Of a DNA stretch of 64,000 nt, positions 392 through 61,207 are shown piece after piece. The stretch covers positions 124,001-188,000 of the forward strand of contig JACRMN010000012.1 in the NCBI GenBank assembly GCA_016214955.1. The letters are read 5' to 3'. Every line of letters begins with the position of its first letter. The stretch's first letter is position 1. This DNA is from Deltaproteobacteria bacterium. Lineage in GTDB: Bacteria; Myxococcota; Myxococcia; Myxococcales; Anaeromyxobacteraceae. Both the position numbers and the translations under genes were made by a program. A model generated the notes under the pieces. It searched no databases. It was not told where the DNA came from and worked only from the letters and a program-made list of their open reading frames with translations.

Positions 392-421
392 TTGACGCCC
401 TTCGAAGAATTCTGGTACTGC
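392..421 (+). promoter_or_regulatory. Candidate promoter of the bcr operon
   Basis: TTGACG at 392-397 matches the sigma-70 -35 consensus at five of six positions. The -10 position, 17-18 bp downstream, is poor (GGTACT or TACTGC), although the second reading has an upstream TG like an extended -10. The -10 side is overlapped by the inverted repeat at 412-429, so a repressor bound there would block the promoter. The weak -10 would also fit an activator-dependent promoter. This is seen by eye only, with no transcription start data. Confidence 0.3.
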
Positions 422-429
422 TTTACCAG
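412..429. promoter_or_regulatory. Operator-like inverted repeat, CYGGTAC motif copy 1
   Basis: CTGGTA-CTGCTT-TACCAG is a perfect 6-bp inverted repeat with a 6-bp spacer, about 80 bp before the had start codon. Related 18-bp sequences occur at 18655-18672 and 59561-59578, each upstream of another aromatic-acid operon. The shared core is CYGGTACYRCWWTNCCAG. The symmetry and recurrence suggest the binding site of one dimeric regulator. The protein is not identified. Confidence 0.6.
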
Positions 430-507: not shown

Positions 508-1572
508 GTGACGCCGCATCGCTGGGTGATGAAGGCAGTGGGCGAGCCGATGGTGCAGGAGACCCTCACCCTCGCGGCGCCCCCCGCCGGCGAGGTGATC
601 GTCGAGGTGGCGGGCTGCGGCGTCTGCCACACCGACCTCGGCTACTACTACGACGGCGTCCGCACCAACATGGCGCTGCCGCTGGCCCTGGGCCACGAGA
701 TCAGCGGCCGGGTGGTGCAGGCCGGCGCCGGGGCCGAGGGCTGGCTGGGCAAGGCGGTGCTGGTCCCGGCGGTGATCCCCTGCGGCTCCTGCGACGCCTG
801 CCGCCGCGGCAAGGGCACCATCTGCCCCGGCCAGAAGATGCCCGGCAACGACATCCACGGCGGCTTCGCCAGCCACGTCACCGTGCCGGCCCGCGGGCTC
901 TGCGCGGTGGACGAGGCCCGGCTCCAGAAGGCCGGCCTGGCGCTGGCCGACGTCTCGGTGGTGGCCGACGCCGTCACCACCCCCTACCAGGCCGCGGTCC
1001 AGGCGGGCGTCTGCCCCGGCGACCTCGCCATCGTCATCGGCGTGGGCGGCGTGGGCTCCTACTGCGTGCAGGTGGCGGCGGCCATGGGCGCCAGGGTGGT
1101 GGCCATCGACGTCGACGCCGCCAAGCTGGCCGCGGTGGCCCAGAACGGCGCCGGCAAGACCCTCAACGCCCGCGAGCACGACCAGAAGGCCCTCAAGAAG
1201 GAGATCGGCGAGTTCGCCAGGCAGAACGGCCTGCGCTCCCGCGAGTGGAAGATCTTCGAGTGCTCCGGCAGCGGCGCCGGCCAGGCCACCGCCTGGGGCC
1301 TCCTGGTCCACGGCGCCACGCTGGCGGTGGTGGGCTTCACCATGGACAAGGTGGAGGTCCGCCTCTCCAACCTCATGGCCTTCCACGCCCGGGCGCTCGG
1401 CAACTGGGGCTGCCCGCCGGAGCTCTACCCCGCCGCCCTCGACCTGGTCCTCGACGGCAAGGTGAAGGTGGCCCCGTTCATCCAGCGCTTCCCGCTGGCC
1501 GAAATCAACCAGGTCCTGCACGACGTGCACGACCGGAAGATCACCCGCCGCGCCATCCTGGTTCCGGCCTAG
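508..1572 (+). CDS. had: 6-hydroxycyclohex-1-ene-1-carbonyl-CoA dehydrogenase
   Basis: An NAD-dependent, zinc-type alcohol dehydrogenase of 354 residues. In the anaerobic benzoyl-CoA pathway it oxidises 6-hydroxycyclohex-1-ene-1-carbonyl-CoA to the 6-oxo compound. Visible are the catalytic zinc segment GCGVCHTD (about residues 36-43), GHE (about 62-64), a four-cysteine structural zinc lobe (CGSCDAC...C, about 91-105) and the Rossmann loop GVGGVGSY. The string [10 protein letters not shown] is, from memory, typical of Had proteins. I chose the GTG at 508 because agaggagg lies at normal spacing before it; an ATG at 529 is the alternative. It is first in an operon with oah and dch, which supports the pathway assignment. 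Confidence 0.9.
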
Positions 1573-1590
1573 GCCGGGAGGAGACCGACC

Positions 1591-2724
1591 GTGAAGCCCA
1601 AGACCGAAGCCGTCGTCGCCGCCACCGCCCCCAAGTCGCTCAAGGACCACGACCTGGCGCCGCGGATCGAGGGGCAGGGCGTCCGCTACGAGAAGAAGCC
1701 GGCCCGGGACCCCAAGGGCAACGTGGTGCCCGGCCTCTACAACGTCTGGATCACCCTCGACAACCCGTCCCAGTACAACTCCTACACCACGGCGATGGTG
1801 AAGCAGGTGATCCTCGGCTTCCGCGCCGCCGGGAACGAGCGCGACGTGGTGGCGGTGGTCTTCACGGGCTCCGGCGACAAGGCCTTCTGCACCGGCGGCA
1901 ACACCAAGGAGTACGCCGAGTACTACGCCGGCAACCCGCAGGAGTACCGGCAGTACATGCGGCTCTTCAACGACATGGTCAGCGCCATCCTCGGCTGCGA
2001 CAGGCCGGTGGTGTGCCGGGTCAACGGCATGCGCATCGGCGGCGGCCAGGAGATCGGCATGGCCTGCGACTTCTCGGTGGCCCAGGACCTGGCCCGGTTC
2101 GGCCAGGCCGGCCCCAAGCACGGCTCGGCGCCCATCGGCGGCGCCACCGACTTCCTGCCGCTGCTGGTGGCCTCGGAGCGGGCCATGGAGTCGGGCGTGC
2201 TCTGCGAGCCCTGGAGCGCGCACCGCGCCTACCGCGAGGGGATGATCACCGACGTGGTCCCGGCGCTGAAGGTGGACGGCAAGTGGGTGGCCAACCCCAC
2301 CGTCGTCACCGACCGGATGTTCGACGAGTGGGGCCGCATCGTCCACGGCGAGCAGAAGACCGGGGCGGCGCTGGAGGAGGGCAAGGCGCTCCTCAAGAAG
2401 GGCACGGTGGACCTCTCGCTCCTCGACGAGAAGGTGGAGCAGCTCTGCGGGAAGCTCCTGCTCACCTTCCCCGACTGCACCACCAAGTCGATCCAGGAGC
2501 TGCGCAAGCCCAAGCTGGCCGCCTGGAACCTCAACAAGGAGAACAGCCGCGACTGGCTGGGCCTCAACATGATGACCGAGGCCCGCACCGGCTTCCGCGC
2601 CTTCAACGAGGGCACCCGGGAGGATCGCGAGGCCGACTTCATCGGCCTGCGCCAGGCCCTGGCCCGGGGCACGCCCTGGAGCGTCGAGCTCACCGAGAGC
2701 CTGCTGCCGGGCAAGGGGAAGTGA
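1591..2724 (+). CDS. oah: 6-oxocyclohex-1-ene-1-carbonyl-CoA hydrolase
   Basis: A crotonase-superfamily protein of 377 residues, the usual Oah length. The enzyme adds water twice to 6-oxocyclohex-1-ene-1-carbonyl-CoA and opens the ring, giving 3-hydroxypimelyl-CoA. The sequence shows an oxyanion-type segment (FCTGGNTKEYAEYY) and a second glycine-rich helix start (RIGGGQEIGMACDFSVAQD), with the long C-terminal extension that separates Oah from ordinary enoyl-CoA hydratases. A GTG start follows a strong GGGAGGAGA site 18 bp after had. Its place between had and dch fits the known order of chemistry in the benzoyl-CoA pathway. Confidence 0.92.
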   Translation: MKPKTEAVVAATAPKSLKDHDLAPRIEGQGVRYEKKPARDPKGNVVPGLYNVWITLDNPSQYNSYTTAMVKQVILGFRAAGNERDVVAVVFTGSGDKAFCTGGNTKEYAEYYAGNPQEYRQYMRLFNDMVSAILGCDRPVVCRVNGMRIGGGQEIGMACDFSVAQDLARFGQAGPKHGSAPIGGATDFLPLLVASERAMESGVLCEPWSAHRAYREGMITDVVPALKVDGKWVANPTVVTDRMFDEWGRIVHGEQKTGAALEEGKALLKKGTVDLSLLDEKVEQLCGKLLLTFPDCTTKSIQELRKPKLAAWNLNKENSRDWLGLNMMTEARTGFRAFNEGTREDREADFIGLRQALARGTPWSVELTESLLPGKGK

Positions 2725-2725
2725 G

Positions 2726-3496
2726 ATGGCCGACTCTCCCCTCCGGGTCTGGAAGGAGCGCGACGACAAGCTCCTGCGGCTGCGGCTCGCCCGCCCCAAG
2801 GCCAACATCGTCGACGCCCAGATGATCGCCGCCCTCGACGCCGCCTACGCCGCGGCCGAGGGCGACGCCAAGCTGCGCGCCGTGCTGCTCGACGCCGAGG
2901 GGAGCCACTTCTCCTTCGGCGCCAGCGTCGAGGAGCACCTGCCGGCCACGGTGGAGGCCATGCTCCGCGGCCTCCACGCCCTGGTGCTGCGGATGCTGGC
3001 CTGCCCGGTGCCCACCCTGGTGGCCATCCGCGGCCAGTGCCTGGGCGGGGGCCTGGAGGTGGCGGCCGCCGGCCACCTGCTCTTCGCCGCCCCCGAGGCC
3101 AAGCTGGGCCAGCCCGAGATCGTGCTCGGCGTCTTCCCGCCCTTCGCCTCCTGCATCCTCCCCGAGCGTTTGCCCCGCGCCGCCGCCGAGGACCTGCTCC
3201 TCTCCGGCCGCTCCATCGACGGCAAGGAGGCCCACCGGCTCGGCCTGGTGAACGCCGTGGCCGACGACCCCGAGGCCGCGGCCCTGGCCTACTTCGACGC
3301 CCACCTGGCCAGGCACTCGGCCGCCTCGCTGCGGCTCGGCACCGCCGCGGCCCGGTACGACATGGTGGAGCGCGTGCGCCACAAGCTCGGCGAGCTGGAG
3401 CGCCGCTACCTGGGCACGCTCATGAAGACCCACGACGCCCTGGAGGGGCTCGCCGCCTTCCTCGAGAAGCGCCCGCCCCGCTGGGAGGACCGCTAG
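2726..3496 (+). CDS. dch: Cyclohexa-1,5-diene-1-carbonyl-CoA hydratase
   Basis: A crotonase-fold hydratase of 256 residues. It hydrates the dienoyl-CoA made by benzoyl-CoA reductase to 6-hydroxycyclohex-1-ene-1-carbonyl-CoA, the substrate of the had product. Recognisable parts are the CoA-binding/oxyanion segment FSFGASVEEHLP and the second oxyanion stretch GQCLGGGLEVAAAGHLLFA, followed by EIVLGVFPP. The C-terminal EKRPPRW resembles the end of known Dch proteins. It starts 1 bp after the oah stop and ends 2 bp before bcrC, so it is translated within the same operon. Confidence 0.92.
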   Translation: MADSPLRVWKERDDKLLRLRLARPKANIVDAQMIAALDAAYAAAEGDAKLRAVLLDAEGSHFSFGASVEEHLPATVEAMLRGLHALVLRMLACPVPTLVAIRGQCLGGGLEVAAAGHLLFAAPEAKLGQPEIVLGVFPPFASCILPERLPRAAAEDLLLSGRSIDGKEAHRLGLVNAVADDPEAAALAYFDAHLARHSAASLRLGTAAARYDMVERVRHKLGELERRYLGTLMKTHDALEGLAAFLEKRPPRWEDR

Positions 3497-3498
3497 CC

Positions 3499-4680
3499 AT
3501 GACCGTGACCAACCGCGGCACCGCGCAGATCACCGCCTGGTGCCAGGAGCTGTTCGACGACCTCGACTTCACCGTGGCCCGCAAGTGGAAGGCGGCCGCC
3601 CCGGGGCGCGGCGTGGTGGCCTACATGCCGGTCTACGTGCCCCGCGAGCTCATCCACGCCGCCGGCATGCTGCCGCTCGGCATCCTCGGCGGCGGCGAGA
3701 ACCTCGAGGTCATCCACGGCGACGCCTACTACCAGAGCTACATCTGCCGCATCCCGCGCTCCACGCTGGAGCTGGGCATCACCGGCAAGCTCGACTTCGT
3801 GGACGGGTTCCTCTTCCCCTCCATCTGCGACGTCATCCGCAACCTCTCCGGCATCTGGAAGCTGCTCTTCCCCAAGGTCTACGTCCGGTACTTCGACGTG
3901 CCCCAGACCTACGTGGACGACACCGGCGGCAGCTTCTACGTGCAGGAGATGCAGGAGCTGCGCGAGGGGCTGGAGCACGTCACCGGGCGCAAGATCACCG
4001 ACGAGGCCCTGCGCGACTCCATCGCCGTCTACAACCAGAACCGCCGCCTGATCCGCGACCTCTACGCCCTGCGCTCCAGGGCGCCGTGGCTGGTGCCCAC
4101 CAGCGAGCTCTACCTGCTGCTGCGCGCCGGGATGGTGCTGCCGGTCGAGGAGCACAGCCAGCTCGTCACCGAGTACCTGGCGGCGGCCCAGGCCGAGCAG
4201 AGGCCCATGCGCGACAACTGCCGGGTGGTGATGAACGGCCTGTTCTGCGAGCAGCCGCCGCTCAACCTCATCAAGGCCATCGAGATGTCGGGCTGCTACG
4301 TGGTGGACGACGACTTCATGCTCGTCACCCGCTGGCTCCTCGACGACGTGCCGGTGGCCGGCGACCCGCTGCAGAACCTCTCCACCGCCTTCCTGCACCG
4401 CTCGATGGAGACCTCGGCCAAGTACCAGCCCGACCTGGCCCAGAAGGGCAAGTACCTCATCGACTCGGTGCGCGAGAACGGCGCCGAGGGCGTCATCTTC
4501 GCGGCCCCCAGCTTCTGCGACCCGGCGCTGCTGGAGCGCCCCATGCTGGAGACCCGGCTCGACGCGGTGGACGTGCCGCACATCGGCTTCAAGTACGCGG
4601 AGAACTCGGGCCAGATGCAGCCGGTCCGCGAGCAGGCCGGCACCTTCGCCGACTCCATCAAGCTCTGGAGCACGCCATGA
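3499..4680 (+). CDS. bcrC: Benzoyl-CoA reductase, subunit C
   Basis: 393 residues of the 2-hydroxyacyl-CoA dehydratase D-component superfamily. With BcrB it forms the substrate-reducing half of class I, ATP-dependent benzoyl-CoA reductase, which reduces benzoyl-CoA by two electrons to cyclohexa-1,5-diene-1-carbonyl-CoA. Conserved cysteines expected to ligate the [4Fe-4S] cluster are visible in [19 protein letters not shown] and [13 protein letters not shown]. The N-terminal [20 protein letters not shown] is typical of this family. The last four bases overlap the bcrB start (ATGA), which ties the two subunits translationally. The class I type is clear because BcrA and BcrD follow. Confidence 0.94.
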
Positions 4681-5990
4681 CCCCGAAGACCCCCGCCGCC
4701 GCCCCTTCCCCCCGCGAGGTGGTGAAGGAGCTCTCGATGGTGAAGCAGAAGGAGATGATCGCCGCCAACTACGACGCCATCACCAGCGCGCCGGAGACCG
4801 GCAGGAAGGTGGCCTCCACCTTCGTGCCCGGCAACCTCAACGAGCTGCTGATGTGCTTCGACCTCCTCAACAACCTCCCCGAGATCAACGCCATCCAGAA
4901 CGGGATGAAGAAGGTCTCGGGCGACTACATCAACGAGGCCGAGAAGCGCGGCCACTCCGAGGACGTCTGCACCTACGTGAAGGCCGACCTGGGCATGATG
5001 GCCAAGGGGAACATCGCCCCCAACGGCAAGCCGCTGCCCCGGCCCGACGTGCTGCTGCTCAGCTACACCGGCTGCTTCACCTTCATGAAGTGGTTCGAGC
5101 TGGTGCGCGACGAGTACAAGTGCCCGACGATCATGCTGCAGGTGCCCTACCAGGCCGACGGCAAGATCACGGCCAACATGCGCAGCTACATCGTCAAGCA
5201 GCTCAAGGACGACGTCATCCCCACGCTGGAGAAGGTCTCGGGGGTGAAGTTCGACATCGACCGGCTGCGCGAGTACCTGCGCGAGTCGGCCAAGGCCGAG
5301 GACGACTTCGTCTGGGTGATGCAGAGCGCCAAGAAGAAGCCCTCGCCCATCGACGCCTACTTCGGGGGCGTCTACTACATCGGCCCCATCTTCACCGCCT
5401 TCCGCGGCACCAGGGACGCCACCGAGTACTACCGGCTGCTCCGCGGCGAGATCGAGGAGCGCATCGCCAAGGGGCTCGGGCCGGTGACGCCCGAGGGCGA
5501 CATGAAGAGCCAGAAGTACCGCCTGGTGGTGGAGGGCCCGCCCAACTGGACCAGCTTCCGCGAGTTCTGGAAGATGTTCTACGACGAGGGCGCGGTGGTG
5601 GTGGCCTCCTCCTACACCAAGGTGGGCGGCACCTACGACTTCGGCTTCCGCCACGACCCCGACCACCCGCTGGAGACGCTGGCCGACTACTGCCTGGGCG
5701 TCTACACCAACCGCTCGCTGCCCATGCGGGTGGACCTGCTCGAGAACTACATGCGGGAGTACGACGCCGACGGGCTGCTCATCAACTCCATCAAGAGCTG
5801 CAACAGCTTCTCGGCCGGCCAGCTGATGATCATGCGCGAGATCGAGAAGCGCACCGGCAAGCCCGGGGCCTTCATCGAGACCGACCTGGTGGACCCCCGC
5901 TACTTCTCCGCCGCCAACGTCAAGAACCGCCTGGAGAGCTACTTCCAGATGATCGACCAGAAGCGGAAGAGCGTGGCCTCGGCCGCCTAG
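4677..5990 (+). CDS. bcrB: Benzoyl-CoA reductase, subunit B
   Basis: 437 residues, the expected size of BcrB. It is the partner of BcrC in the aromatic-substrate-binding half of the reductase. The sequence shows [10 protein letters not shown] near the N-terminus, [14 protein letters not shown] with a conserved cysteine, and [14 protein letters not shown] near the C-terminus, where the cysteine is a likely cluster ligand. It starts with the ATG at 4677, inside the bcrC stop region (ATGA overlap), and is followed 11 bp later by bcrA with a GGGG-type ribosome-binding site. No truncation or substitution is obvious. Confidence 0.94.
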
Positions 5991-6001
5991 GGGGATCGAC
6001 A

Positions 6002-7303
6002 ATGAAGTGCTTCATCGGCATCGACCTGGGCTCGACCACCACCAAGGCGGTGGTCATGGACGAGAACGCCCAGGTGCTGGGGCGCGGCATCACCAACTCC
6101 CGCTCCAACTACGACACCGCCGCCGCGGTCTCCAAGCAGGAGGCGCTCATCGACGCGCGCTTCACGCTCTTCCGCCGCGGCCTCTCCGGCGTGCCGGCGC
6201 TGGCCGGCAAGGTGGACGGCTTCCTCGGCGACCTGGAGCGCAGCTTCCGCCACGTGCAGTTCCTGGAGCAGGTGGACGACCTCGAGGCCACCTGCACCAA
6301 GAACTCCAAGGGGCTGCGCTTCGCCGGCAGCGAGGCGGCGCTGGCCCGGACGGTGGCCGAGGTCTTCCGGCAGCTCCGCGAGGAGTCGGGGGCCCTCTTC
6401 GCCCCCGGCGCCCGGCGCAAGAGCGACTTCTTCCGCGACATCGCCGGCGCCCGCTTCGTCACCCTGGCCGAGCCGGTGTGCAAGGCAGAGGGGCTCTCCT
6501 TCGAGCTGCTCCTCAACGTCTACGACAAGTCGATCATCGAGGTGGAGAACCGCCCGCCCTCGGGCGCCATGGAGGGCAAGTTCCTGCGCGCCCTCGACAG
6601 GACCCTGGCCGGCGCGTCGCTCCCCAAGGACGACGTGGCCCGGCCGGTGAAGGCCGCCCTGGAGATCCCGCTGGAGGAGACCTACGTGGTGGGCACCGGC
6701 TACGGCCGGGTGCGGCTCCCGTTCCCCAAGGAGCACATCCGCTCCGAGATCCTCTGCCACGGCCTCGGCGCCCACATCATGTACGCCGACACCCGCACCG
6801 TGCTCGACATCGGCGGCCAGGACACCAAGGCCATCCAGGTGGACAAGGACGGCATCGTCGAGAACTTCCAGATGAACGACCGCTGCGCCGCCGGCACCGG
6901 GCGCTACCTGGGCTACGTGGCCGACGAGATGAAGATGGGCCTCCACGAGCTCGGCCCCATGGCCATGAAGGCCACCAAGACCCTGCGCATCAACTCCACC
7001 TGCACCGTCTTCGCCGGCGCCGAGCTGCGCGACAGGCTGGCGCTGGGCGACAAGCGCGAGGACATCCTGGCCGGCCTGCACCGGGCCATCATCCTGCGGG
7101 CCATGTCGATCATCTCCCGCTCCGGCGGCATCCGCGACCAGTTCACCTTCACCGGCGGCGTCGCCAAGAACGAGGCCGCGGTCAAGGAGCTGCGCAAGCT
7201 CATCAAGGAGAACTACGGCGACGTCACCATCAACATCAACCCGGATTCCATCTACACCGGCGCGCTGGGTGGCGCCGCCTTCGCCCTCCGGGCGGTGGCC
7301 TAG
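6002..7303 (+). CDS. bcrA: Benzoyl-CoA reductase, ATPase subunit A
   Basis: 433 residues of the BadF/BadG/BcrA/BcrD ASKHA ATPase family. BcrA and BcrD form the electron-activating half of the enzyme: they hydrolyse ATP, share a bridging [4Fe-4S] cluster and deliver low-potential electrons from ferredoxin to BcrBC. Seen are the phosphate-1 loop [12 protein letters not shown] at the N-terminus, [10 protein letters not shown] as phosphate-2, the cluster cysteines in [12 protein letters not shown] and [11 protein letters not shown], and the adenosine loop FTGGVAKN. The longer size compared with BcrD, with an inserted middle region, distinguishes A from D. The ATG at 6002 follows gggatcga. Confidence 0.94.
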
Positions 7304-7313
7304 GAGACACGCG

Positions 7314-8174
7314 ATGAGGAAGATCACCGCGGGCATCGACGTCGGGACCGGGTGCGTCAAGGCCGTGCTCTTCGAGCACGGCGAGGGCGCGCCCCGCTGG
7401 CTGGCACGCGCCTGCGAGCGCATCCGCCAGCGCGATCCCTACCAGCTGGCCGAGGAGGCCTACCTGGGCCTCCTGGCCGAGCAGAAGCTGGAGAGGAAGG
7501 ACGTGGCCTACGTGGCCACCACCGGCGACGGCGAGAACCTGACCTTCGCCACCGGCCACTTCTACTCCATGACCACCCACGCCCGCGGCGCCGTCTTCCT
7601 CGACGCCAGCACCCGGGCGGTGGTGGACGTGGGCGCCCTCCACGGCCGCGCCATGCGCACCGACGGCCGCGGCAAGGTGCTCAGCTACAAGATGACCAGC
7701 CAGTGCGCCTCGGGCTCGGGCCAGTTCCTCGAGAACATCGCCCGCTACCTGGGCATCGCCCAGGACGAGATCGGCGCGCTCTCCATCCAGGGCAAGAACC
7801 CGGAGAAGGTCTCCTCCATCTGCGCGGTGCTGGCCGAGACCGACGTCATCAACATGGTCTCCCGCGGCATCAGCGCCTCCAACATCCTCCGCGGCATCCA
7901 CGTCTCCATGGCCGGCCGCCTGGCGTCGCTGGTGAAGGGGGTGGCCGCCATGGAGGGCACGGTGCTGATGACCGGCGGCCTGGCGCTGGACCAGGGGCTG
8001 GTGGCCGCCACCCAGGAGGCGCTGGCCGAGACGCGCAGCCCGCTGGTGGTGCGCACCCACCCGGACGCCATCCACGCCGGCGCCATCGGCGCCGCCCTCT
8101 GGGGCGCCTTCCGGTACGACAAGCTGCAGGCGCGCGGACAGCTGGGCGGCCAGGCCGCCGGGCGGGCGGCATGA
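7314..8174 (+). CDS. bcrD: Benzoyl-CoA reductase, ATPase subunit D
   Basis: 286 residues, the second ASKHA ATPase subunit of class I benzoyl-CoA reductase. The phosphate loop is GIDVGTGCVKAVL, the cluster cysteines sit in SQCASGSGQFLE and SSICAVLAETD, and the adenosine motif is MTGGLALDQG. The start ATG at 7314 follows AGGAGA. The stop overlaps the ATG of the following acetyltransferase gene (ATGA), so that protein should be made in proportion to BcrD. No ferredoxin gene lies next to it, unlike the Thauera-type cluster as I remember it. Confidence 0.93.
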   Translation: MRKITAGIDVGTGCVKAVLFEHGEGAPRWLARACERIRQRDPYQLAEEAYLGLLAEQKLERKDVAYVATTGDGENLTFATGHFYSMTTHARGAVFLDASTRAVVDVGALHGRAMRTDGRGKVLSYKMTSQCASGSGQFLENIARYLGIAQDEIGALSIQGKNPEKVSSICAVLAETDVINMVSRGISASNILRGIHVSMAGRLASLVKGVAAMEGTVLMTGGLALDQGLVAATQEALAETRSPLVVRTHPDAIHAGAIGAALWGAFRYDKLQARGQLGGQAAGRAA

Positions 8175-9831: not shown

Positions 9832-11436
9832 ATGCCCTTCGAGAACCTGACCGTGGACTCCTCGGCCCGACCGGCGAGGCTCCAGTTCGCCCCCGGCTTC
9901 AACGCGGCCACCGCCTTCGTCGACCGCCACCTCGGCGAGGGGCGCGGCGCCAAGGTGGCCATCCGCACCACCGGCGGCGCCGAGGTCACCTACGCCCAGC
10001 TCGCCGAGCAGGTGAACCGCGCCGGCAACGCGCTCGCCGGGCTGGGCGTGAAGCGCGGCGACCGGCTGCTGATGATGGTGAAGGACTGCCCCGAGTTCTT
10101 CTACCTGTTCTGGGGCGCCATCAAGGCGGGCATCGTCCCGGTGCCGCTCAACACCCTGCTGCGGGCCGCCGACTACCAGTACATGATCGAGGACTCGCAG
10201 TGCACGGCGGTGGCCTGGTCGCCGGAGTTCGCCGGCGAGGTGAAGCCGGCGCTGGCGGCGCTGCGCCGCCCGCCGCCGGTGCTCCTGCCCGTGCAGGGGG
10301 AGGGGCAGACGGTGCAGGCGGTCCTGGCGGCCGCCTCCCCGCAGCTCCGGGCGGTGCCGGCCGGCGCCACCTCGACCTGCTTCTGGCTCTACTCCTCCGG
10401 CTCCACCGGCCGGCCCAAGGGAGCGGTCCACCGCCACCGCGACATGGTGGCCACCAGCCAGCTCTACGGCAGCGACGTGCTGGGGGTGAAGGAGAGCGAC
10501 GTCTGCTTCTCGGCCGCCAAGCTCTTCTTCGCCTACGGCCTGGGCAACGGCATGACCTTCCCGCTCTGGGCCGGGGCCACGGCGGTGCTCCTCGACGCCC
10601 GGCCCGCGCCGCCCAACACCTTCGAGACCATCGAGAAGCTCCGCCCCACCCTCTACTTCGGCGTCCCCACCCTCTACGCCGCCCAGCTCCAGGCGCTGGA
10701 GAGCGCCAGGCCCGACCTCTCCTCGGTGAGGCTCTGCGTCTCGGCAGGCGAGGCGCTCCCGGCCGACATCTTCCGCCGCTGGAAGGAGCGCACCGGCCTC
10801 ACCATCCTCGACGGCATCGGCTCCACCGAGGCGCTCCACATCTTCATCTCCAACCGCGACGGCGACGTCCGGCCGGGCACCAGCGGCAAGGTGGTGCCGG
10901 GCTACGAGGCCCGGGTGGTGCTGGAGGGCGGGGCCCCGGCGCCCGCGGGCGAGGCCGGGCGGCTCCACGTCAAGGGGCCCTCCACCGCCGCCTTCTACTG
11001 GAACAACCCGGAGAAGACCGCCGCCACCATGCTGGGCGACGACTGGCTCGACACCGGCGACACCTACGTCTGCGACGCCGAGGGCTACTACCGGTACGAG
11101 GGGCGCTCCGACGACATGCTCAAGGTGGGCGGCATCTGGTGCTCGCCCATCGAGATCGAAGCCCGCCTGGTGGCCCACCCCAAGGTGCTGGAGGTGGCGG
11201 TCATCGGCGCACCCGACGCCGCCGGGTTGGTGAAGCCCGAGGCATATGTCGTCTTGCGCGAGGGGGTGCCGGCCTCTCACGCCCTGGCCGACGAGCTCAT
11301 GCTCCACTGCAAGAGCCACCTGGCGCCCTACAAGTTCCCGCGCCAGATCCACTTCGTGCCCGAGCTGCCCAAGACGGCCACCGGCAAGATCCAGCGCTTC
11401 CGGCTGCGGCAGCTGGCCGAGGCGCAGAAGGCGTAG
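9832..11436 (+). CDS. bclA: Benzoate-CoA ligase
   Basis: 534 residues of the ANL (AMP-forming) superfamily. It activates benzoate with ATP and CoA to benzoyl-CoA, the common intermediate of both the bcr and box routes encoded in this window. Motifs in order: the P-loop YSSGSTGRPKG (about 185-195), SAAKLFFAYGLGNG, which is characteristic of benzoate and 4-hydroxybenzoate ligases, GIGSTEALHIF, WLDTGDTY, and the C-terminal PKTATGKIQRF containing the catalytic lysine. That last stretch also fits the Px4GK pattern of lysine acetylation seen in R. palustris ligases. It is the last gene of the operon, followed by a strong hairpin. Confidence 0.92.
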   Translation: MPFENLTVDSSARPARLQFAPGFNAATAFVDRHLGEGRGAKVAIRTTGGAEVTYAQLAEQVNRAGNALAGLGVKRGDRLLMMVKDCPEFFYLFWGAIKAGIVPVPLNTLLRAADYQYMIEDSQCTAVAWSPEFAGEVKPALAALRRPPPVLLPVQGEGQTVQAVLAAASPQLRAVPAGATSTCFWLYSSGSTGRPKGAVHRHRDMVATSQLYGSDVLGVKESDVCFSAAKLFFAYGLGNGMTFPLWAGATAVLLDARPAPPNTFETIEKLRPTLYFGVPTLYAAQLQALESARPDLSSVRLCVSAGEALPADIFRRWKERTGLTILDGIGSTEALHIFISNRDGDVRPGTSGKVVPGYEARVVLEGGAPAPAGEAGRLHVKGPSTAAFYWNNPEKTAATMLGDDWLDTGDTYVCDAEGYYRYEGRSDDMLKVGGIWCSPIEIEARLVAHPKVLEVAVIGAPDAAGLVKPEAYVVLREGVPASHALADELMLHCKSHLAPYKFPRQIHFVPELPKTATGKIQRFRLRQLAEAQKA

Positions 11437-12400: not shown

Positions 12401-12868
12401 TCAGCGGGGAGTGACGGACGCCAGCCAGCGCTGGACGAGCCGCAGGAGCTGGCCGGTCTCGGCTGGCCCCAGGGCGGCGAAGGCCTCGTCGAAGAAGGCG
12501 GCCTGGCGGGCGCGCTCGGCGGGCGAGTCGAGGGCGCCGACCCTGTCGGTGAGGTGGAGCCGCAGGGCCCGCCGGTCGGCGGGGTCGGGGGTGATGCGCA
12601 GGAAACCCCTGTCCTGCAGCTGCTGGGCGATCTGCTTCACGTTCTGGCGCGAGCTGCCGTGCCACAGGGCCGCCTCGCTCAGGGTCGGGCTCTCCCCGGG
12701 GAACCTGCGGGTCAGCACCGCCAGCAGCAGCCACTGCTTGGTGGTGATACCGAGCGGCTCCAGCACCGCGTCGGCGCGCCGGGCCAGGTACTGGGTGAGC
12801 ACGAAGACCGAGCCGAAGAGCTCGGCGCGGAGTGGCAGGAGGTCGGCGGACGCAGGGCGGCTCGGCAT
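12401..12868 (-). CDS. MarR-family transcriptional regulator
   Basis: 155 residues. Visible is a winged helix typical of MarR: ITTKQWLLLAVL (helix 2), TLSEAALWHGSSRQNVKQIAQQLQDRGFL (recognition helix region), then RITPDPADRRALRLHLT, the wing with the conserved D-RR motif. Terminal helices would form the dimer interface. It precedes the DUF6544-like gene by 16 bp. The ATG at 12868 has no ribosome-binding site and lies only about 4 nt from the predicted transcription start, so the mRNA may be nearly leaderless. Its palindromic operator differs from the motif upstream of the benzoate genes, so it is probably a local autoregulator and not the benzoate regulator. Confidence 0.88.
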   Translation of the reverse strand: MPSRPASADLLPLRAELFGSVFVLTQYLARRADAVLEPLGITTKQWLLLAVLTRRFPGESPTLSEAALWHGSSRQNVKQIAQQLQDRGFLRITPDPADRRALRLHLTDRVGALDSPAERARQAAFFDEAFAALGPAETGQLLRLVQRWLASVTPR

Positions 12869-12873
12869 GACAG

Positions 12874-12906
12874 GTAATATATTACGCACTTGCGCGACGC
12901 CGTCAA
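12874..12906 (-). promoter_or_regulatory. marR promoter with overlapping perfect palindrome
   Basis: Reading the minus strand, TTGACG (12901-12906) is followed by a 16-bp spacer and TAATAT (12879-12884). The -10 is contained in GTAATATATTAC (12874-12885), a perfect 12-bp palindrome and a striking A+T island in this G+C-rich DNA. MarR proteins commonly bind such palindromes over their own promoter. The predicted start of transcription is about 12872, four bases before the marR ATG. Confidence 0.65.
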
Positions 12907-14030: not shown

Positions 14031-14740
14031 TCAGACACCCAGGTGCTTCTGGAGCAGCTCCGGATCGGCGCGCAGCGAGGACGAGTCGCCGGTGAAGACC
14101 ACGCGCCCCTTCACCAGGATGACGTTGCGGTCGGTCACCGAGGTGACGGCGGCGTGGTTCTTGTCGACGATGACGGTGGCGATGCCGTGCCCCTTCACGT
14201 CGCGGATGATGCGCCAGATCTCCGCGGCGATCTGGGGTGCCAGCCCCTCGGTGGCCTCGTCGAGGATGAGGAGGTCGGGGTTGGTCATCAGCGCCCGCCC
14301 GATGGTCAGCATCTGCTGCTCGCCGCCGCTGAGCTGGGCGCCGCCGTGCTCCAGCCGCTCCCCCAGGCGCGGGAAGGTGCCCATCACCCGGTCCAGCGTC
14401 CAGGCTCGCCGGCCGTCGAGGCCGGGGCGGGCCGCCATCACCAGGTTCTCGCGCACCGTCAGGTTGGGGAAGATGCCGCGCCCCTCGGGAACGTAGGCGA
14501 TGCCGCGCCGGGCCACGCGGTAGGGCTCGGCGCCGGTCATGGGAGTGCCCTGCACCCAGACCCGTCCGCCGCGCGGCTTCACCAGCCCCAGCATGGCGCG
14601 CAGCAGCGTGGTCTTGCCCATGCCGTTGCGGCCCATGAGCCCCACCGCCTCGCCCCGGGCCACGCGGAAGTCCACCCCGTGGAGCACGTGGCTGGTGCCG
14701 TAGTAGGCGTGGAGATCGCGGGCCTCGAGGAGGCTGTCGC

Positions 14741-14744
<4 letters not shown>
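14031..14744 (-). CDS. livF: Liv-type ABC importer 1, ATP-binding protein LivF
   Basis: 237 residues. A cytoplasmic ATPase of the branched-chain amino acid/amide (HAAT) importer family. Walker A is GRNGMGKTT, the signature LSGGEQQML, Walker B LLILDEATEGLAP, and the switch His lies near DKNHAAV. LivF proteins lack the extra C-terminal tail of LivG, as here. The start is a GTG at 14744 overlapping the livG stop (GTGA). Many importers of this family next to benzoyl-CoA genes carry aromatic acids; given the divergent box operon and the shared operator, benzoate or a related acid is the inferred substrate. Confidence 0.88.
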
Positions 14745-15495
<751 letters not shown>

Positions 15496-15499
<4 letters not shown>

Positions 15500-16476
15500 G
15501 GCCTGGGCCCTCCCACCAGGGCGGCGCGGAAGCGGGCGCGCAGGCTGGCCAGCCCCCCGGGCACGAAGAGGACCAGGAGGACGATGGTGGCGCCGAGCAG
15601 CAGCTGCCAGCGGAGGGTGGCCGCCTGGAAGACCTCCTGCAGCAGCGCGAAGCCGAAGGCGCCCAGGGCGGCGCCGGTGAAGGTGCCCGGCCCGCCCAGG
15701 ATCACCATCAGCAGCACGTTGCCCGACTGGTGCCAGGAGAGCAGCTCCGGGTTCACGTAGCCGTACTGCAGCGCCGAGAGGTAGCCGGCCAGCCCGGCCA
15801 GGGCGCCGGCCAGGGTGAAGCTGGCCAGCTTGTAGTGGTAGGTGCGGAAGCCGAGCGAGCGCATCCGCTGCTCGTTGGCCTTGATGCCGCGCAGCGCCCG
15901 GCCGAAGGGGGAGCCGAGCAGGAACCGCAGGAAGCCCAGCACCAGCGCCAGGGCGCCGAGGGCGACGAAGTAGGTGGTGCGCGGGTTGCCGAAGTCGAAC
16001 ACCTGGAGGTCGCCGATGGCCGCCGCCGGCTTGAAGTTCATGGTGATGCCGTCGGAGCCGCGCCCGAACTCGGTGTCGTGGAAGAGGAAGTAGAACATCT
16101 GGGCGAAGGCCAGCGTGGCCATGATGAAGTAGGTGCTCTTCACCCGGACGACGAAGATGCCCACCAGGAAGGCGGCCAGCGCCGACAGCCCCACCGCCAG
16201 CGGCAAGGTGGTCCAGAAGCTGGCCGGGTCGTACCGGGGGGTGCGCAGCGCCAGCACGTAGGCGCCGATGCCGAAGTAGGCGGCATGGCCCAGCGACACC
16301 AGGCCGGTGATGCCCACCAGCAGGTCCAGGCTCATCGCGAAGATGGCCAGGATCATCACCTTGGTGATGAGCTCCAGGTAGAAGGGCGAGTCGAGCAGCG
16401 GGAACAGCGCCAGCGCCAGGCCGGCGGCGAGGATGGCCCAGGGCCTGCGGGTCGCCGGTTCTCCGGGAAGGGCCAC
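15496..16476 (-). CDS. livM: Liv-type ABC importer 1, permease LivM
   Basis: 326 residues, an integral membrane permease with about 8-10 hydrophobic segments. Family landmarks are SLDLLVGITGLVSLGHAAYFGIGAY, a short cytoplasmic coupling region with AIKANEQRMRSLGF (the EAA-like loop that contacts the ATPases), and a late GGPGTFTGAALGAF. It pairs with LivH to form the channel. It begins with GTG 1 bp after livH ends. Confidence 0.87.
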
Positions 16477-16477
16477 G

Positions 16478-17344
16478 CTAGATGCTCCGGAAGAGCCCCT
16501 CGGGGCGCCAGAGGAGGACCGCGGCCATCACCAGGTAGACCACCACGCCCGCGGCCTGCGGGAGGAAGACGCGGCCGAAGGTGTCGACGATGCCGATGAG
16601 CAGGGCGGCGAGGAGGGCGCCACGCACCGAGCCGATGCCGCCCATGACCACGACCACCAGGCAGATGATGAGCACGTGGGTGCCCATGCCCGGGTACACC
16701 GACGACACCGGCGCGGCGATCATGCCGGCGAAGGCCGCCAGGGCCACGCCCAGCGCGAAGACCAGCCGGTAGACGAGCTTGATGTTGAGGCCCAGGGACT
16801 GGACCATCTCGCGGTTGGAGGCGCCGGCCCGGATCATCATGCCCAGGCGGGTGCGCTGGATGAGCAGGTACATGAGCCCGCCGATGACCAGGCAGACCCC
16901 CGACAGGAAGAGCCGGTACACCGGGTAGCTCAGGTTGGCGGTGAGGGGGATGGAGCCGGCCAGCATGGGTGGCACCGGGACGCCGTGGACGTCGTTGTCC
17001 ACCAGGATGCTGCGCAGCTCCTCCAGCACCAGGATGAGACCGTAGGTGAGGAGCACCTGGTCCAGGTGGTCGCGCTGGTAGAGCCGGGCGAAGAGCGTCC
17101 ACTCCAGCAGCATGCCCAGGGCCACCGAGAGGCCGATGCCCAGCACCACCCCGGCCAGCAGGCTGCCGGTGGCCGAGGCGAAGACGAACGCCATGTAGGC
17201 GCCCACCATGTAGAAGCTGCCGTGGGCCAGGTTGATGATGCCCATGATCCCGAAGACCAGCGTCAGCCCGCTGGCCACCAGGAACAGCAGCAGCCCGTAC
17301 TGCACGCCGTTCAGGAGCTGGATGAGGAGGGAAGCGAGATCCAC
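16478..17344 (-). CDS. livH: Liv-type ABC importer 1, permease LivH
   Basis: 288 residues, the other membrane permease. Typical LivH features are the N-terminal LLNGVQYGLLLFLVASGLTLVFGIMGIINLAHGSFYMVGAY region, the coupling loop MMIRAGASNREMVQSLG and VVVMGGIGSVRGAL near the C-terminus. The GTG start at 17344 lies 70 bp downstream of the solute-binding-protein gene, with a stem-loop between them. The first permease after the binding protein is usually translated at a lower level, which such a stem-loop could help to set. Confidence 0.87.
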   Translation of the reverse strand: MDLASLLIQLLNGVQYGLLLFLVASGLTLVFGIMGIINLAHGSFYMVGAYMAFVFASATGSLLAGVVLGIGLSVALGMLLEWTLFARLYQRDHLDQVLLTYGLILVLEELRSILVDNDVHGVPVPPMLAGSIPLTANLSYPVYRLFLSGVCLVIGGLMYLLIQRTRLGMMIRAGASNREMVQSLGLNIKLVYRLVFALGVALAAFAGMIAAPVSSVYPGMGTHVLIICLVVVVMGGIGSVRGALLAALLIGIVDTFGRVFLPQAAGVVVYLVMAAVLLWRPEGLFRSI

Positions 17345-17414: not shown

Positions 17415-18584
17415 TCACATCTTGCAGCCGCGGGCCGGGTCGGCGAGCGCCGGGGCGGCCACGTTCACCATCTTGTTGAGCTTGCCTTCGACCTTGCGCA
17501 GGTAGATGTCGTTCACCGGGTTGTGGGCCTTGGAGAGGCTCATCTTGCCGCGCGGGCTCTCCAGCCTGGCGCCCTCCATGGCGGCGATCATCTCCTTGCG
17601 CTTGCTGGTGTCGCCCTTCACCGCCGCCAGGCCGGCGGCGAGGAGCTGGGCGGCGTCGTAGCCCTGCACCGAGAAGACGTCGGGCTCGGCCTTGAAGGCC
17701 TTCAGGTAGGCGGCGCGGAAGGCCTTGTCCTTGGCGTTGTCGAGGCCGTCGGCGTAGTGGAGCGTGGTCTGCACGCCCTGGGCGGCCTCGCTGCCGTCGA
17801 GCACCCCCTCGGTGAGGAAGCCGGGGCCGTAGAGCGGGATCTTGGCCTTGAGGCCCGCCGCGGCGTAGTCCGCCAGGTACTTCCTGGCGCCGCCGCCGGA
17901 GAAGAAGGAGAAGACCATGTCGGGCTTCAGGGCGGCGATCTCGGTGAGGTAGGACTGGAACTCGACCTGGGGGAAGGGCAGCGTCATCGCCTTCACCACC
18001 TTGCCGCCGGCGGCCTCGAAGCCCTCCTTGAAGGCCTCCACCGCCTCGTTCCCGGCCGCGTAACCCCAGGTGAAGGTCACCGCCGTCTTCTTGCCCTGGG
18101 CGGCCGCCACCTTGCCCATGGTGTGGCTCGACTGCCACATGGTGAAGGAGGTGCGGAAGTGGTTGGGCGAGCAGAGCGCGCCGGTGAGCTCGGCGGCGCC
18201 GGCGTTGGGGTTGATGAGCAGCGAGTTGTTGTCGCGGGCCACCTTGGCCATCGCCATGGCCACGCCCGAGTGGACGGTGCCGACGAGCACGTCGACCTTG
18301 TCGCGCTTGATGAGCTTGGAGGCGTTGTCGGGGGCCTTGGCCGGATCGGACTCGTCGTCGACGGTGAAGTACTCGACCTCGCTGCCGCCGAGCTTCCCGC
18401 CGTTCTCCTCGACGAAGAGCTTGAACCCGTTGGTGATGTTGTTGCCCAGGCCGGCGTAGGTGCCGGTGTAGGGCAGCATCAGGCCCACCCGGACCTTGGA
18501 GGCGGCCAGGGTGGCGGCGGGCAGGAGCAGGGCCGCGCCGGCGGCCAGCACTGCGAGGAGACGGCTGCTGCGGGGCATCGTCAT
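17415..18584 (-). CDS. Liv-type ABC importer 1, periplasmic substrate-binding protein
   Basis: 389 residues of the type 1 periplasmic-binding-protein fold (ANF receptor/Peripla_BP_6). The N-terminus is a signal peptide (hydrophobic LLAVLAAGAALLL, cleavage near TLAAS-KV). The mature start VRVGLMLPYTGTYAGLGNNITNGF is the usual opening of this family, followed by DDESDPAKAPDNASKLI and VDVLVGTVHSGVAMAM. It should capture the ligand in the periplasm and deliver it to LivHM. The ATG at 18584 was chosen because GGAGG lies 5 nt upstream. It is divergent from boxC; the 207-bp region between holds the operator motif and an FNR-type box. An aromatic acid ligand is inferred from context. Confidence 0.87.
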   Translation of the reverse strand: MTMPRSSRLLAVLAAGAALLLPAATLAASKVRVGLMLPYTGTYAGLGNNITNGFKLFVEENGGKLGGSEVEYFTVDDESDPAKAPDNASKLIKRDKVDVLVGTVHSGVAMAMAKVARDNNSLLINPNAGAAELTGALCSPNHFRTSFTMWQSSHTMGKVAAAQGKKTAVTFTWGYAAGNEAVEAFKEGFEAAGGKVVKAMTLPFPQVEFQSYLTEIAALKPDMVFSFFSGGGARKYLADYAAAGLKAKIPLYGPGFLTEGVLDGSEAAQGVQTTLHYADGLDNAKDKAFRAAYLKAFKAEPDVFSVQGYDAAQLLAAGLAAVKGDTSKRKEMIAAMEGARLESPRGKMSLSKAHNPVNDIYLRKVEGKLNKMVNVAAPALADPARGCKM

Positions 18585-18654
18585 GGTTCCTCCGGGGCGA
18601 GGGCGGGCAGGCCGGCCGTGGCGCCAGGCACGCCTGCGCGCGATAGCGGCAAAA

Positions 18655-18672
18655 CCGGTACTGCAATGCCAG
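18655..18672. promoter_or_regulatory. Operator-like repeat, CYGGTAC motif copy 2
   Basis: CCGGTACTGCAATGCCAG agrees with the copy upstream of had at 14 of 18 positions and keeps the outer dyad (C-GG...CC-G). It lies in the divergent region, 71 bp from the binding-protein ATG and 120 bp from boxC, so one bound regulator could act on both operons. Confidence 0.6.
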
Positions 18673-18752
18673 AAATACCACCCTGGCCCGGCCACCTTCA
18701 AGCCGCCGGCGTGTTCCTCCCCGCAGATCGCGTACTTGCCCCCAAGCGGGTG

Positions 18753-18766
18753 TTGATCTTAATCAA
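18753..18766. promoter_or_regulatory. FNR/Anr-type box, perfect consensus
   Basis: TTGAT-CTTA-ATCAA is an exact match to the FNR-family consensus TTGATN4ATCAA. It is an A+T island only 26 bp before the boxC ATG and 169 bp from the divergent binding-protein ATG. For boxC the site is too close to the start codon for classical -41.5 activation, so repression of the oxygen-requiring genes under anoxia, or activation of the divergent importer, are the likelier roles. The direction of control is inference. Confidence 0.65.
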
Positions 18767-18771
18767 GTAAA

Positions 18772-18789
18772 GCGGTACCTGTTTGCCTG
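18772..18789. promoter_or_regulatory. Weaker CYGGTAC-like motif at the boxC start
   Basis: GCGGTACCTGTTTGCCTG keeps GGTAC, the T-rich centre and CC of the other copies but has poor outer symmetry. It ends 2 bp before the boxC ATG and occupies the place where a ribosome-binding site should be; no such site is visible. It could be an auxiliary operator or a chance match. Confidence 0.35.
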
Positions 18790-18791
18790 TC

Positions 18792-20474
<1,683 letters not shown>

Positions 20475-20475
20475 C

Positions 20476-21906
20476 ATGTCCGTCATCTCGCAGGAGCGCA
20501 TTCCCAACAACGTCGACCTGGCCAGCGACAAGCGGCTGCAGCGCGCCCTGGAGGCGTGGCAGCCCTCCTTCATCCAGTGGTGGAAGGACATGGGGCCCCA
20601 CGGCTTCCAGGAGGACCAGGTCTACCTGCGCACCGCCATCAGCGTGGAGCCGGACGGCTGGGCCCACTTCGACTACGTGAAGATGCCCGTGTACCGCTGG
20701 GGCATCTTCCTGGCCGACCAGGTCCCCGACCGGCGCATCGGCTTCGGCGACCTCATGGGCGAGCCGGTGTGGCAGCAGGTGCCGGGCGAGCACCGCAACG
20801 CCCTGCGCCGGCTCATCGTCACCCAGGGTGACACCGAGCCGGCCAGCGTCGAGCAGCAGCGCCTGCTGGGCCGCACCTGCCCCAGCCTCTACGACCTGCG
20901 CAACCTCTTCCAGGTGAACGTGGAGGAGGGGCGGCACCTCTGGGCCATGGTCTACCTGCTCCACAGCTACTTCGGCCGCGACGGGCGCGAGGAGGCCGAG
21001 GAGATGCTCCACCGGCGCAGCGGCGACCAGAACAAGCCGCGCATCCTCGGCGCCTTCAACGAGCCCTGCACCGACTGGCTCTCCTTCTTCATGTTCACCT
21101 ACTTCACCGACAGGGACGGCAAGTACCAGCTGCTGGCCCTGGCCGAGAGCGCCTTCGACCCGCTCTCGCGCACCACCCGGTTCATGCTCACCGAGGAGGC
21201 CCACCACATGTTCGTGGGCGAGACCGGGGTGATGCGGGTGGTGGAGCGCACCGCCCAGATGATGAAGGAGCAGAAGAAGGACCACCCCGACGACCTGCGC
21301 AAGCTCGGCCTCGTCGACCTGCCCACCGTCCAGCGCTACCTCAACCTCTGGTACTCGGTGAGCCTGGACCTCTTCGGCGGCGAGATCTCCTCCAACGCCG
21401 CCTCCTCCTTCGCCGCCGGCCTCAAGGGGCGCGCCCAGGAGGACCGCTACGAGGACCACAGGGCCCTCACCGGCACCTACGCCGTCCCCCGGTTCCAGAA
21501 CGGCGCCCTGGTGACGGAGGACGTCCCCATGCGGAACGCCATGAACGAGGTGGTGCGCGACGCCTACATCGAGGACTGCCAGCGCGGCGTGGACAAGTGG
21601 AACCGGGCCATCGCCGCCCACGGCATCCCCTTCGAGCTCAGGCTCCCCAGCCGCCGCTTCCACCGGGCGGTGGGCGTGCACGCCGGCCAGCACTTCGACC
21701 CGGAGGGCAACCCGGTCTCGGCCGAGGCCTGGCAGGCGAGCCAGGACGCCTGGCTGCCCTCCGCCGCCGACAGGGCCCACGTGCAGGGGCTGATGCGCGA
21801 GCCGGTGATGGAGCCGGGCAAGATGGCCAGCTGGATCGCCGCCCCGAAGCAGGGCATCAAGGGCCGGCCGGTGGACTTCGAGTACGTCCGGCCGCGGCAG
21901 GCCTAG
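20476..21906 (+). CDS. boxB: Benzoyl-CoA 2,3-epoxidase, oxygenase subunit BoxB
   Basis: 476 residues, the usual BoxB size. This class I diiron oxygenase uses O2 and two electrons to make 2,3-epoxybenzoyl-CoA. The diiron ligand pattern is visible as a helix with EEGRHLWAMVYLL (E-x2-H) and a second with TEEAHHMFVGE (E-x2-H), plus a nearby aspartate/glutamate helix (FNEPCTDWLSFF). MPVYRWGIFLADQVPDRRIGFG is typical of the family. The known electron donor is the flavoprotein BoxA, whose gene is absent here. The ATG at 20476 is served by GGAGGAGG inside the end of boxC. Confidence 0.94.
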   Translation: MSVISQERIPNNVDLASDKRLQRALEAWQPSFIQWWKDMGPHGFQEDQVYLRTAISVEPDGWAHFDYVKMPVYRWGIFLADQVPDRRIGFGDLMGEPVWQQVPGEHRNALRRLIVTQGDTEPASVEQQRLLGRTCPSLYDLRNLFQVNVEEGRHLWAMVYLLHSYFGRDGREEAEEMLHRRSGDQNKPRILGAFNEPCTDWLSFFMFTYFTDRDGKYQLLALAESAFDPLSRTTRFMLTEEAHHMFVGETGVMRVVERTAQMMKEQKKDHPDDLRKLGLVDLPTVQRYLNLWYSVSLDLFGGEISSNAASSFAAGLKGRAQEDRYEDHRALTGTYAVPRFQNGALVTEDVPMRNAMNEVVRDAYIEDCQRGVDKWNRAIAAHGIPFELRLPSRRFHRAVGVHAGQHFDPEGNPVSAEAWQASQDAWLPSAADRAHVQGLMREPVMEPGKMASWIAAPKQGIKGRPVDFEYVRPRQA

Positions 21907-21918
21907 CCGGAGCGCGCC

Positions 21919-23460
<1,542 letters not shown>

Positions 23461-59500: not shown

Positions 59501-59827
59501 GCGAAGACCTCCTGCGGGGTGGATGCGGCGAGAGCGTCGGTCTCCGGACATAACCATATTCCGGTACCACTTTTCCAGGCCCCGTCGCCCCGGTGCCCCG
59601 ACGGGGCGCACTGACGGTGCGTGGCGCGGTGCGGCAGGGGGCGCCGTCCGGGCCGCCTCCCCTGCTCGCCGGGGCGGCGGCCCGGGCCTGCGGAGCGCGT
59701 TTCCCGGCGGCGGGCGGGCGACCCGCCCCGAGGGGGCGGCGCCACCTCGATCGGGCGGTGGGAAGATGCGCCCACACCTCACCTCGCACCGCACCGGCGC
59801 CTCGCGGCGCCCGCGGAGGACCACACC
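59501..59827. other. Divergent region between importer 2 and the subtilase
   Basis: 327 bp between two divergent genes. It contains the operator motif at 59561-59578, an adjacent CCGGA/TCCGG half-dyad at 59544-59564, and an A+T-rich stretch (59550-59560) that could be the -10 of the leftward importer promoter. The part next to the subtilase is G+C-rich with only a ribosome-binding site (GGAGGA) visible. No small gene is supported. Confidence 0.5.
59561..59578. promoter_or_regulatory. Operator-like repeat, CYGGTAC motif copy 3
   Basis: CCGGTACCACTTTTCCAG matches the had-side copy at 14 of 18 positions and keeps the outer CYGG/CCAG dyad. It is 61 bp before the importer 2 binding-protein start, at a position where it could overlap the promoter. 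Confidence 0.6.

Positions 59828-61207
<1,380 letters not shown>

Follow-up and report, generated by a model that had tools for sequence, protein, structure and literature searches.

Benzoyl-CoA can be degraded by an oxygen-free route (bcr) or an oxygen-using one (box), and bacteria with both have to decide which to use. In the best-studied examples it is the anaerobic route that is switched on, by an FNR-type protein. According to the available text of one report, the PN promoter of the anaerobic bzd operon in Azoarcus sp. CIB is activated by the FNR-type protein AcpR from position -41.5, with a transcription start 75 nt before the ATG, and operators for BzdR lie over the -10 and +1 positions; the element reported for BzdR, a close relative of BoxR, is TGCA-N6-TGCA (PMC6678401). 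The anaerobic reductase operon badDEFGAB of Rhodopseudomonas palustris is described, in the accessible portion of its source, as being activated by AadR and repressed by the Rrf2 protein BadM, which is released through an effector made by the GNAT protein BadL (PMC6191541). In Betaproteobacteria, as far as the available part of a third account relates, BoxR, an XRE-shikimate-kinase protein, represses the box genes, and the divergent cluster often includes a benzoate ABC transporter (PMC6449761). Global oxygen regulators paired with substrate repressors are already known, and the new part here is an oxygen-type site on the aerobic branch. Our literature search, in which few subscription papers were covered, returned no account of box genes being controlled by FNR and none joining boxC, boxB, benzoyl-CoA and FNR in the text available to it.

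The stretch of DNA analysed here (the window; 64,000 nucleotides, 73% G+C, from a genome of 5.3 Mb) contains a bcr operon, a benzoate-CoA ligase gene and the box genes, and the organism therefore has both benzoyl-CoA routes. Its sequence suggests the opposite design to that of the best-studied cases, with the aerobic route switched off when oxygen is lacking and the anaerobic route under substrate control alone. Like Azoarcus PN, the boxC promoter combines an FNR-type site with a substrate-repressor operator at a benzoyl-CoA pathway promoter, the operator probably lying over the -10/+1 region; unlike PN, the site belongs to the aerobic operon, is separated from the ATG by 25 bases, a position from which it could only repress, is lacking at bcr, and is accompanied by an operator that is not TGCA-based. 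A putative Crp/FNR-type oxygen input and a probable Rrf2 repressor are shared with R. palustris, a GNAT-Rrf2 pair being present in this genome, but here it is the aerobic branch that has the FNR-type site, and the bcr and box promoters have the operator in common. A substrate repressor acting at a divergent box cluster with a transporter would also recall the BoxR systems. Nevertheless, the BoxR/BzdR-type operator TGCA-N6-TGCA is absent from the divergent region (18585-18791), which has only one TGCA, and the literature covered describes no FNR-type input to box genes.

We propose a model, with a probability of roughly 60%, in which boxC transcription would require both benzoate and oxygen, through a two-input core promoter that permits repression only. 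Without substrate, a benzoate-pathway repressor would hold operator B over the -10 and start region; without oxygen, an FNR-like iron-sulfur regulator would hold the box on the -35 element. Either bound protein would exclude RNA polymerase, leaving the boxCB-aldehyde dehydrogenase operon off. The divergent importer would be under substrate control alone through operator A, any effect of the FNR-type box on it being secondary, and the bcr operon would have its operator in common with boxC but do without the box. A first-pass annotation of this DNA had claimed that a substrate signal and an oxygen signal are joined in the region. Both types of site proved real, and their spacing, the regulator genes and the occurrence of the FNR-type motif across the family can likewise be read directly from sequence; the ligand and the binding proteins, together with the pairing of proteins with sites, the promoter elements and the responses to oxygen and benzoate, are predictions.

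Sites and promoter elements upstream of boxC

The boxC gene (18792-20474, plus strand) encodes 2,3-epoxybenzoyl-CoA dihydrolase (TIGR03222, 749 bits against a cut-off of 712). It is followed on the same strand by boxB (20476-21906), for a subunit of the O2-requiring benzoyl-CoA 2,3-epoxidase (TIGR03225, 791 bits against 499), and by a boxD-like gene (21919-23460) for 3,4-dehydroadipyl-CoA semialdehyde dehydrogenase (NF008868, 675 bits against 444). The ATG at 18792 is supported as the boxC start codon by the residues M1-A2, which are invariant across four BoxC proteins. The anaerobic benzoyl-CoA pathway operon had-oah-dch-bcrCBAD (538-8174, plus strand) supplied the promoter for comparison, and the benzoate-CoA ligase gene lies at 9832-11436.

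A perfect FNR-type box, TTGAT-CTTA-ATCAA (TTGATCTTAATCAA), occupies positions 18753-18766. It is the sole match to TTGAT-N4-ATCAA in the 64 kb, even with up to one mismatch allowed (shuffle mean 0.10), and dinucleotide shuffling, repeated 20,000 times each for 18552-18791 and for 18701-18791, never produced a perfect box. The exact site named by the first-pass annotation was thus borne out, as was its closeness to the boxC start codon: 25 intervening bases were counted where 26 bp had been given, and the box centre lies 32.5 bases from the A of the ATG. The annotation was also right that bcr has no such box, the best match in the bcr region having three mismatches.

Operator copy B (GCGGTACCTGTTTGCCTG, 18772-18789, plus strand) ends 2 bases before the boxC ATG, and a longer palindrome (GTAAAGCGGTACCTGTTTGC) spans 18767-18786. 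On the importer side, copy A (CCGGTACTGCAATGCCAG) lies at 18655-18672 (plus strand). These copies were scored, against shuffles, with a matrix built from ten sites in other genomes only, namely bcr promoters and further intergenic copies from five relatives and boxC promoters from two congeners. The top four distinct sites in the window start at 412 (25.9 bits, the bcr promoter), 59561 (15.7), 18772 (15.6) and 18655 (15.4). Both starts previously claimed for the divergent region, 18655 and 18772, were confirmed and stand among these four. Five matches in the window, of which 18772 contributes one per strand, reach at least 15 bits; 100 shuffles gave 0.09 on average. Searching the whole genome with a simple consensus of the operator gave six matches, three of them in the benzoate cluster.

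Comparison with the bcr promoters helps to place the boxC promoter elements. In the bcr promoters of the window's genome (G000) and of G013, G023, G022 and G018, but not of G015, TTGACG starts 20 nt upstream of the operator; the comparison covered five of the six relatives with bcrB, leaving out G019, whose contig begins inside the had gene. Within the window, this probable -35 element lies at 392-397 and the bcr operator (CTGGTACTGCTTTACCAG) at 412-429 (plus strand), with no FNR-type box. At boxC the corresponding distance is 19 nt, counted to operator B from the start of TTGATC (18753-18758, plus strand), which is the left half of the FNR-type box. Since TTGATC stands at the place of the TTGACG in bcr, the box probably covers the boxC -35 element and operator B the -10 element, for which TACCTG (18776-18781, plus strand), 17 nt after the -35 element and within operator B, is the probable candidate. 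A consensus sigma-70 promoter scan of either strand found none, the boxC elements falling below the scan consensus.

With the elements so placed, transcription of boxC would probably start near 18788 and yield a nearly leaderless mRNA. Such an mRNA fits the missing ribosome-binding sequence: there is no Shine-Dalgarno sequence before boxC, whereas the importer gene has GGAGG. The centre of the FNR-type box would then probably be near -28, and operator B would cover the -10 element and the start. At these predicted positions, bound FNR could block boxC but could not activate it, and operator B could likewise only repress. Class II activation of boxC was considered and rejected on distance, since a site at -41.5 would push the start into the gene, to about 18801; the PN-type arrangement, with an FNR site 41.5 bases before the start, is for the same reason not found at boxC. 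The preference of the first-pass annotation for repression over class II activation is therefore supported, both by the distance to the ATG and by the position of the box over the predicted -35 element.

Origin of the FNR-type site at boxC

Given that TTGATC occupies the -35 position, only the right half of the box needs explaining. The alternative that survives best holds that TTGATC is nothing more than the boxC -35 element, that the ATCAA after it is there by chance, and that the benzoate operator alone controls boxC. The sister bcr promoters, with TTGACG at the same place, are consistent with this. ATCAA occurs at a frequency of 1.5e-4 per intergenic position per strand, and a chance origin of the right half appears unlikely but not negligible. 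The rarity of the combination argues against chance: among 293 occurrences of TTGAY on both strands of 252 kb of family sequence, only the boxC site (once per strand) is continued by N4-RTCAA, and none of the 291 others is.

The lack of the box at other boxC promoters, on the other hand, favours the chance explanation. None of the three family relatives with boxC has an FNR-type box at its boxC promoter. Among 80 named boxC loci (79 with at least 150 bp of upstream sequence), TTGAY-N4-RTCAA was found within 400 bp upstream of none, and at one mismatch upstream of two. In the congeners, 78 bases separate the operator from the boxC ATG, and boxC does not adjoin the importer. This different layout, together with the lack of the box at the relatives' boxC genes, indicates that the box arrangement is specific to the present lineage. 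It is conceivable, and we hold this only tentatively as something short of an even bet, that two abutting repressor sites in a shared core promoter provide an oxygen check on the aerobic branch only, and that this arose recently in a single lineage through the -35 element coming to serve as one half of an FNR box. The locus would in that case show how a -35 element could become an FNR site by the gain of one half-site.

Also against the chance explanation is that the same motif forms a real footprint at hydrogenase promoters, for TTGAY-N4-RTCAA marks the [NiFe]-hydrogenase promoters of the family. It is exact in 10 of 27 small-subunit promoters, a set that includes close relatives and paralogues and whose rows are not independent, while the best of 59 permuted palindromes reached 2 of 27 and all 59 together scored 9 across the same promoters. 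If the perfect box is allowed up to two mismatches, 16 of the 27 promoters match, whereas six control palindromes matched in 5 of 162 tests. The set comprises 27 of 29 loci, two (L196 and L204) being left out for want of the small-subunit anchoring motif. In the window's genome itself, a [NiFe]-hydrogenase small-subunit gene has a perfect box (G000:C13:105472-105485) at 76 bases from its ATG, a distance that allows activation. Among the one-mismatch sites of this genome, one precedes a 2-oxoacid:acceptor oxidoreductase gene by 43 bases and another a pyruvate phosphate dikinase gene by 128.

Genome-wide counts of the perfect box speak, if anything, for the chance explanation, as they reveal no enrichment across the family. 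In 24 family genomes there are 33 perfect boxes against 50 copies of the dinucleotide-matched palindrome TGATT-N4-AATCA (sums made by hand). An apparent enrichment of 4 against 0, or 21 against 2 for one-mismatch sites, had come from a first control, the reversed pattern AACTA-N4-TAGTT, which was weak in that it gave almost no matches in any search. Since the matched palindrome is the commoner one, the argument from genome-wide enrichment was dropped. The matched palindrome is in turn a poor control, because both of its copies in G000 (C12:89220, L206; C30:207423, L207) lie just upstream of genes of acyl-CoA metabolism, one encoding a thiolase and the other an electron-transfer flavoprotein. 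We also gave up reading the relatives' perfect boxes as a regulon: the genes downstream of them are mixed, and consequently only the hydrogenase footprint is used as evidence. Taken together, these observations lead us to regard the chance explanation as unlikely.

Two further observations concern palindromes elsewhere in the genome. TGATT-N4-AATCA may be the site of a fatty-acid or acyl-CoA regulator in the family. Separately, the malate synthase A gene has a perfect FNR-type box (G000:C26:70784-70797) with the same spacing as at boxC, 25 bases from the ATG, and a helix-turn-helix regulator gene in divergent orientation. Malate synthase A is an enzyme expected mainly in aerobic growth, and its box may be a second site of anoxic repression.

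The divergent importer promoter

Upstream of boxC and on the minus strand lie the genes of an importer. They encode a substrate-binding protein of the branched-chain type (17415-18584; PF13458), with its start at 18584 or 18578 after GGAGG, two permeases (16478-17344 and 15496-16476) and two ATPases (14741-15499 and 14031-14744), the permease and ATPase genes scoring below the curated cut-offs of urea/branched-chain models. The divergent layout invites the explanation that the box serves the importer, with FNR activating benzoate import in anoxia, either as a class II activator from -41.5 or as a class I activator from about -94, and having little effect on boxC. A candidate importer promoter, TTGAAG-18-TATTTC (18701-18672, minus strand), would place the box centre near -94, which is close to a position for class I activation; this promoter is weak and below the consensus threshold, and operator A would cover its start.

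The class II version, for which the first-pass annotation had suggested a start near 18718, found no support: there is no consensus promoter and no recognisable -10 element near that position. Two importer orthologues were found, both in congeners, and neither locus has an FNR-type site. Moreover, the box overlaps the boxC -35 element, so that boxC would be affected in any case. We therefore regard a role of the box chiefly at the importer as improbable, and favour the model in which it would act on boxC.

Candidate regulators of the two sites

FNR of Escherichia coli recognises TTGAT-N4-ATCAA through an E-x-x-S-R helix and carries a set of four cysteines, and the position of its site decides between activation and repression. 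Three Crp-type regulators encoded in the present genome score over the Pfam cut-offs, and only one of them has the four-cysteine set. This FNR-like protein (G000:C19:26288-26998) combines a cNMP-like domain (PF00027) with a Crp-type helix-turn-helix (PF13545), both over their cut-offs. An FNR homologue, on whose existence the first-pass annotation had made its oxygen reading depend, is thus present. It occurs as a single copy in each of 21 of the 24 family genomes, at 73-83% identity to the G000 protein; the three genomes without it are 66-80% complete. Its cysteines align with C20, C23, C29 and C122 of E. coli FNR (reference checked against NC_000913); all 21 orthologues keep the four and, as aligned, have the recognition helix ETLSR. 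The motif, the helix and the set of four cysteines are shared with the E. coli FNR regulon, the difference being a longer spacing between the second and third cysteines (C-x2-C-x10/11-C against C-x2-C-x5-C in FNR). The protein likely carries an iron-sulfur cluster.

Least probable of the alternatives is that some other Crp/FNR-type protein reads the box for a signal other than oxygen, either nitric oxide (a DNR-like protein) or whatever is sensed by a second regulator with an SRETVSR helix. DNR-like and FNR-like proteins do have the TTGAT-N4-ATCAA motif in common, the match of the FNR-like protein to the DNR structure 3dkw (E 3.3e-06) is about as good as that of other members of the family, and the CRP-like protein L005 also has E-T-V-S-R; but the four invariant cysteines set the FNR-like protein apart from DNR, which to our knowledge has no cysteine cluster, and L005 resembles CRP, the R before the E in its helix being presumably typical of CRP.

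The FNR-like gene adjoins a molybdopterin biosynthesis gene (named from its translation, without a family search). In its own promoter, a TTGAY half-site is kept in 18 of 21 orthologues (counted by hand). The promoters of these genes (L026-L046) also have in common a conserved palindrome, CGCAA-N3-TTGCG, as well as CGGGCCT, TGCAA and GAC(G)-N3-4-ATCAAG.

For the operator, the most likely repressor is an Rrf2 protein resembling BadM, whose gene stands next to that of a BadL-like acetyltransferase, as suggested by gene neighbourhood and by analogy with R. palustris. An Rrf2 gene is paired with a GNAT gene at G000:C26:113753-114603, about 10 kb to the left of the window and beside the bcr cluster, and GNAT-Rrf2 pairs of the same kind also lie beside bcr in relatives. 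At the pair itself, the operator matrix found no site of at least 10 bits. A MarR-type regulator encoded within the cluster (12401-12868, minus strand; PF12802) is a possible alternative candidate for binding the operator. At the start of its gene lies a palindrome (TAATATATTA, 12868-12890) to which the benzoate operator matrix gives 11.6 bits; this palindrome may be autoregulatory.

Two minor observations concern further copies of the operator. The fourth copy in the window (CCGGTACCACTTTTCCAG, 59561-59578, plus strand) lies in the intergenic region 59462-59827, between genes at 58250-59461 (minus strand) and 59828-61207 (plus strand). In the gene group there, the gene at 58250-59461 is the second periplasmic-binding-protein-like one, which suggests that the regulon has another importer. 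In some relatives (L079 and L081), the operator is common to bcr and a divergent acyl-CoA dehydrogenase-like gene, which likewise has a TTGACG 20 nt from the operator, on the other strand.
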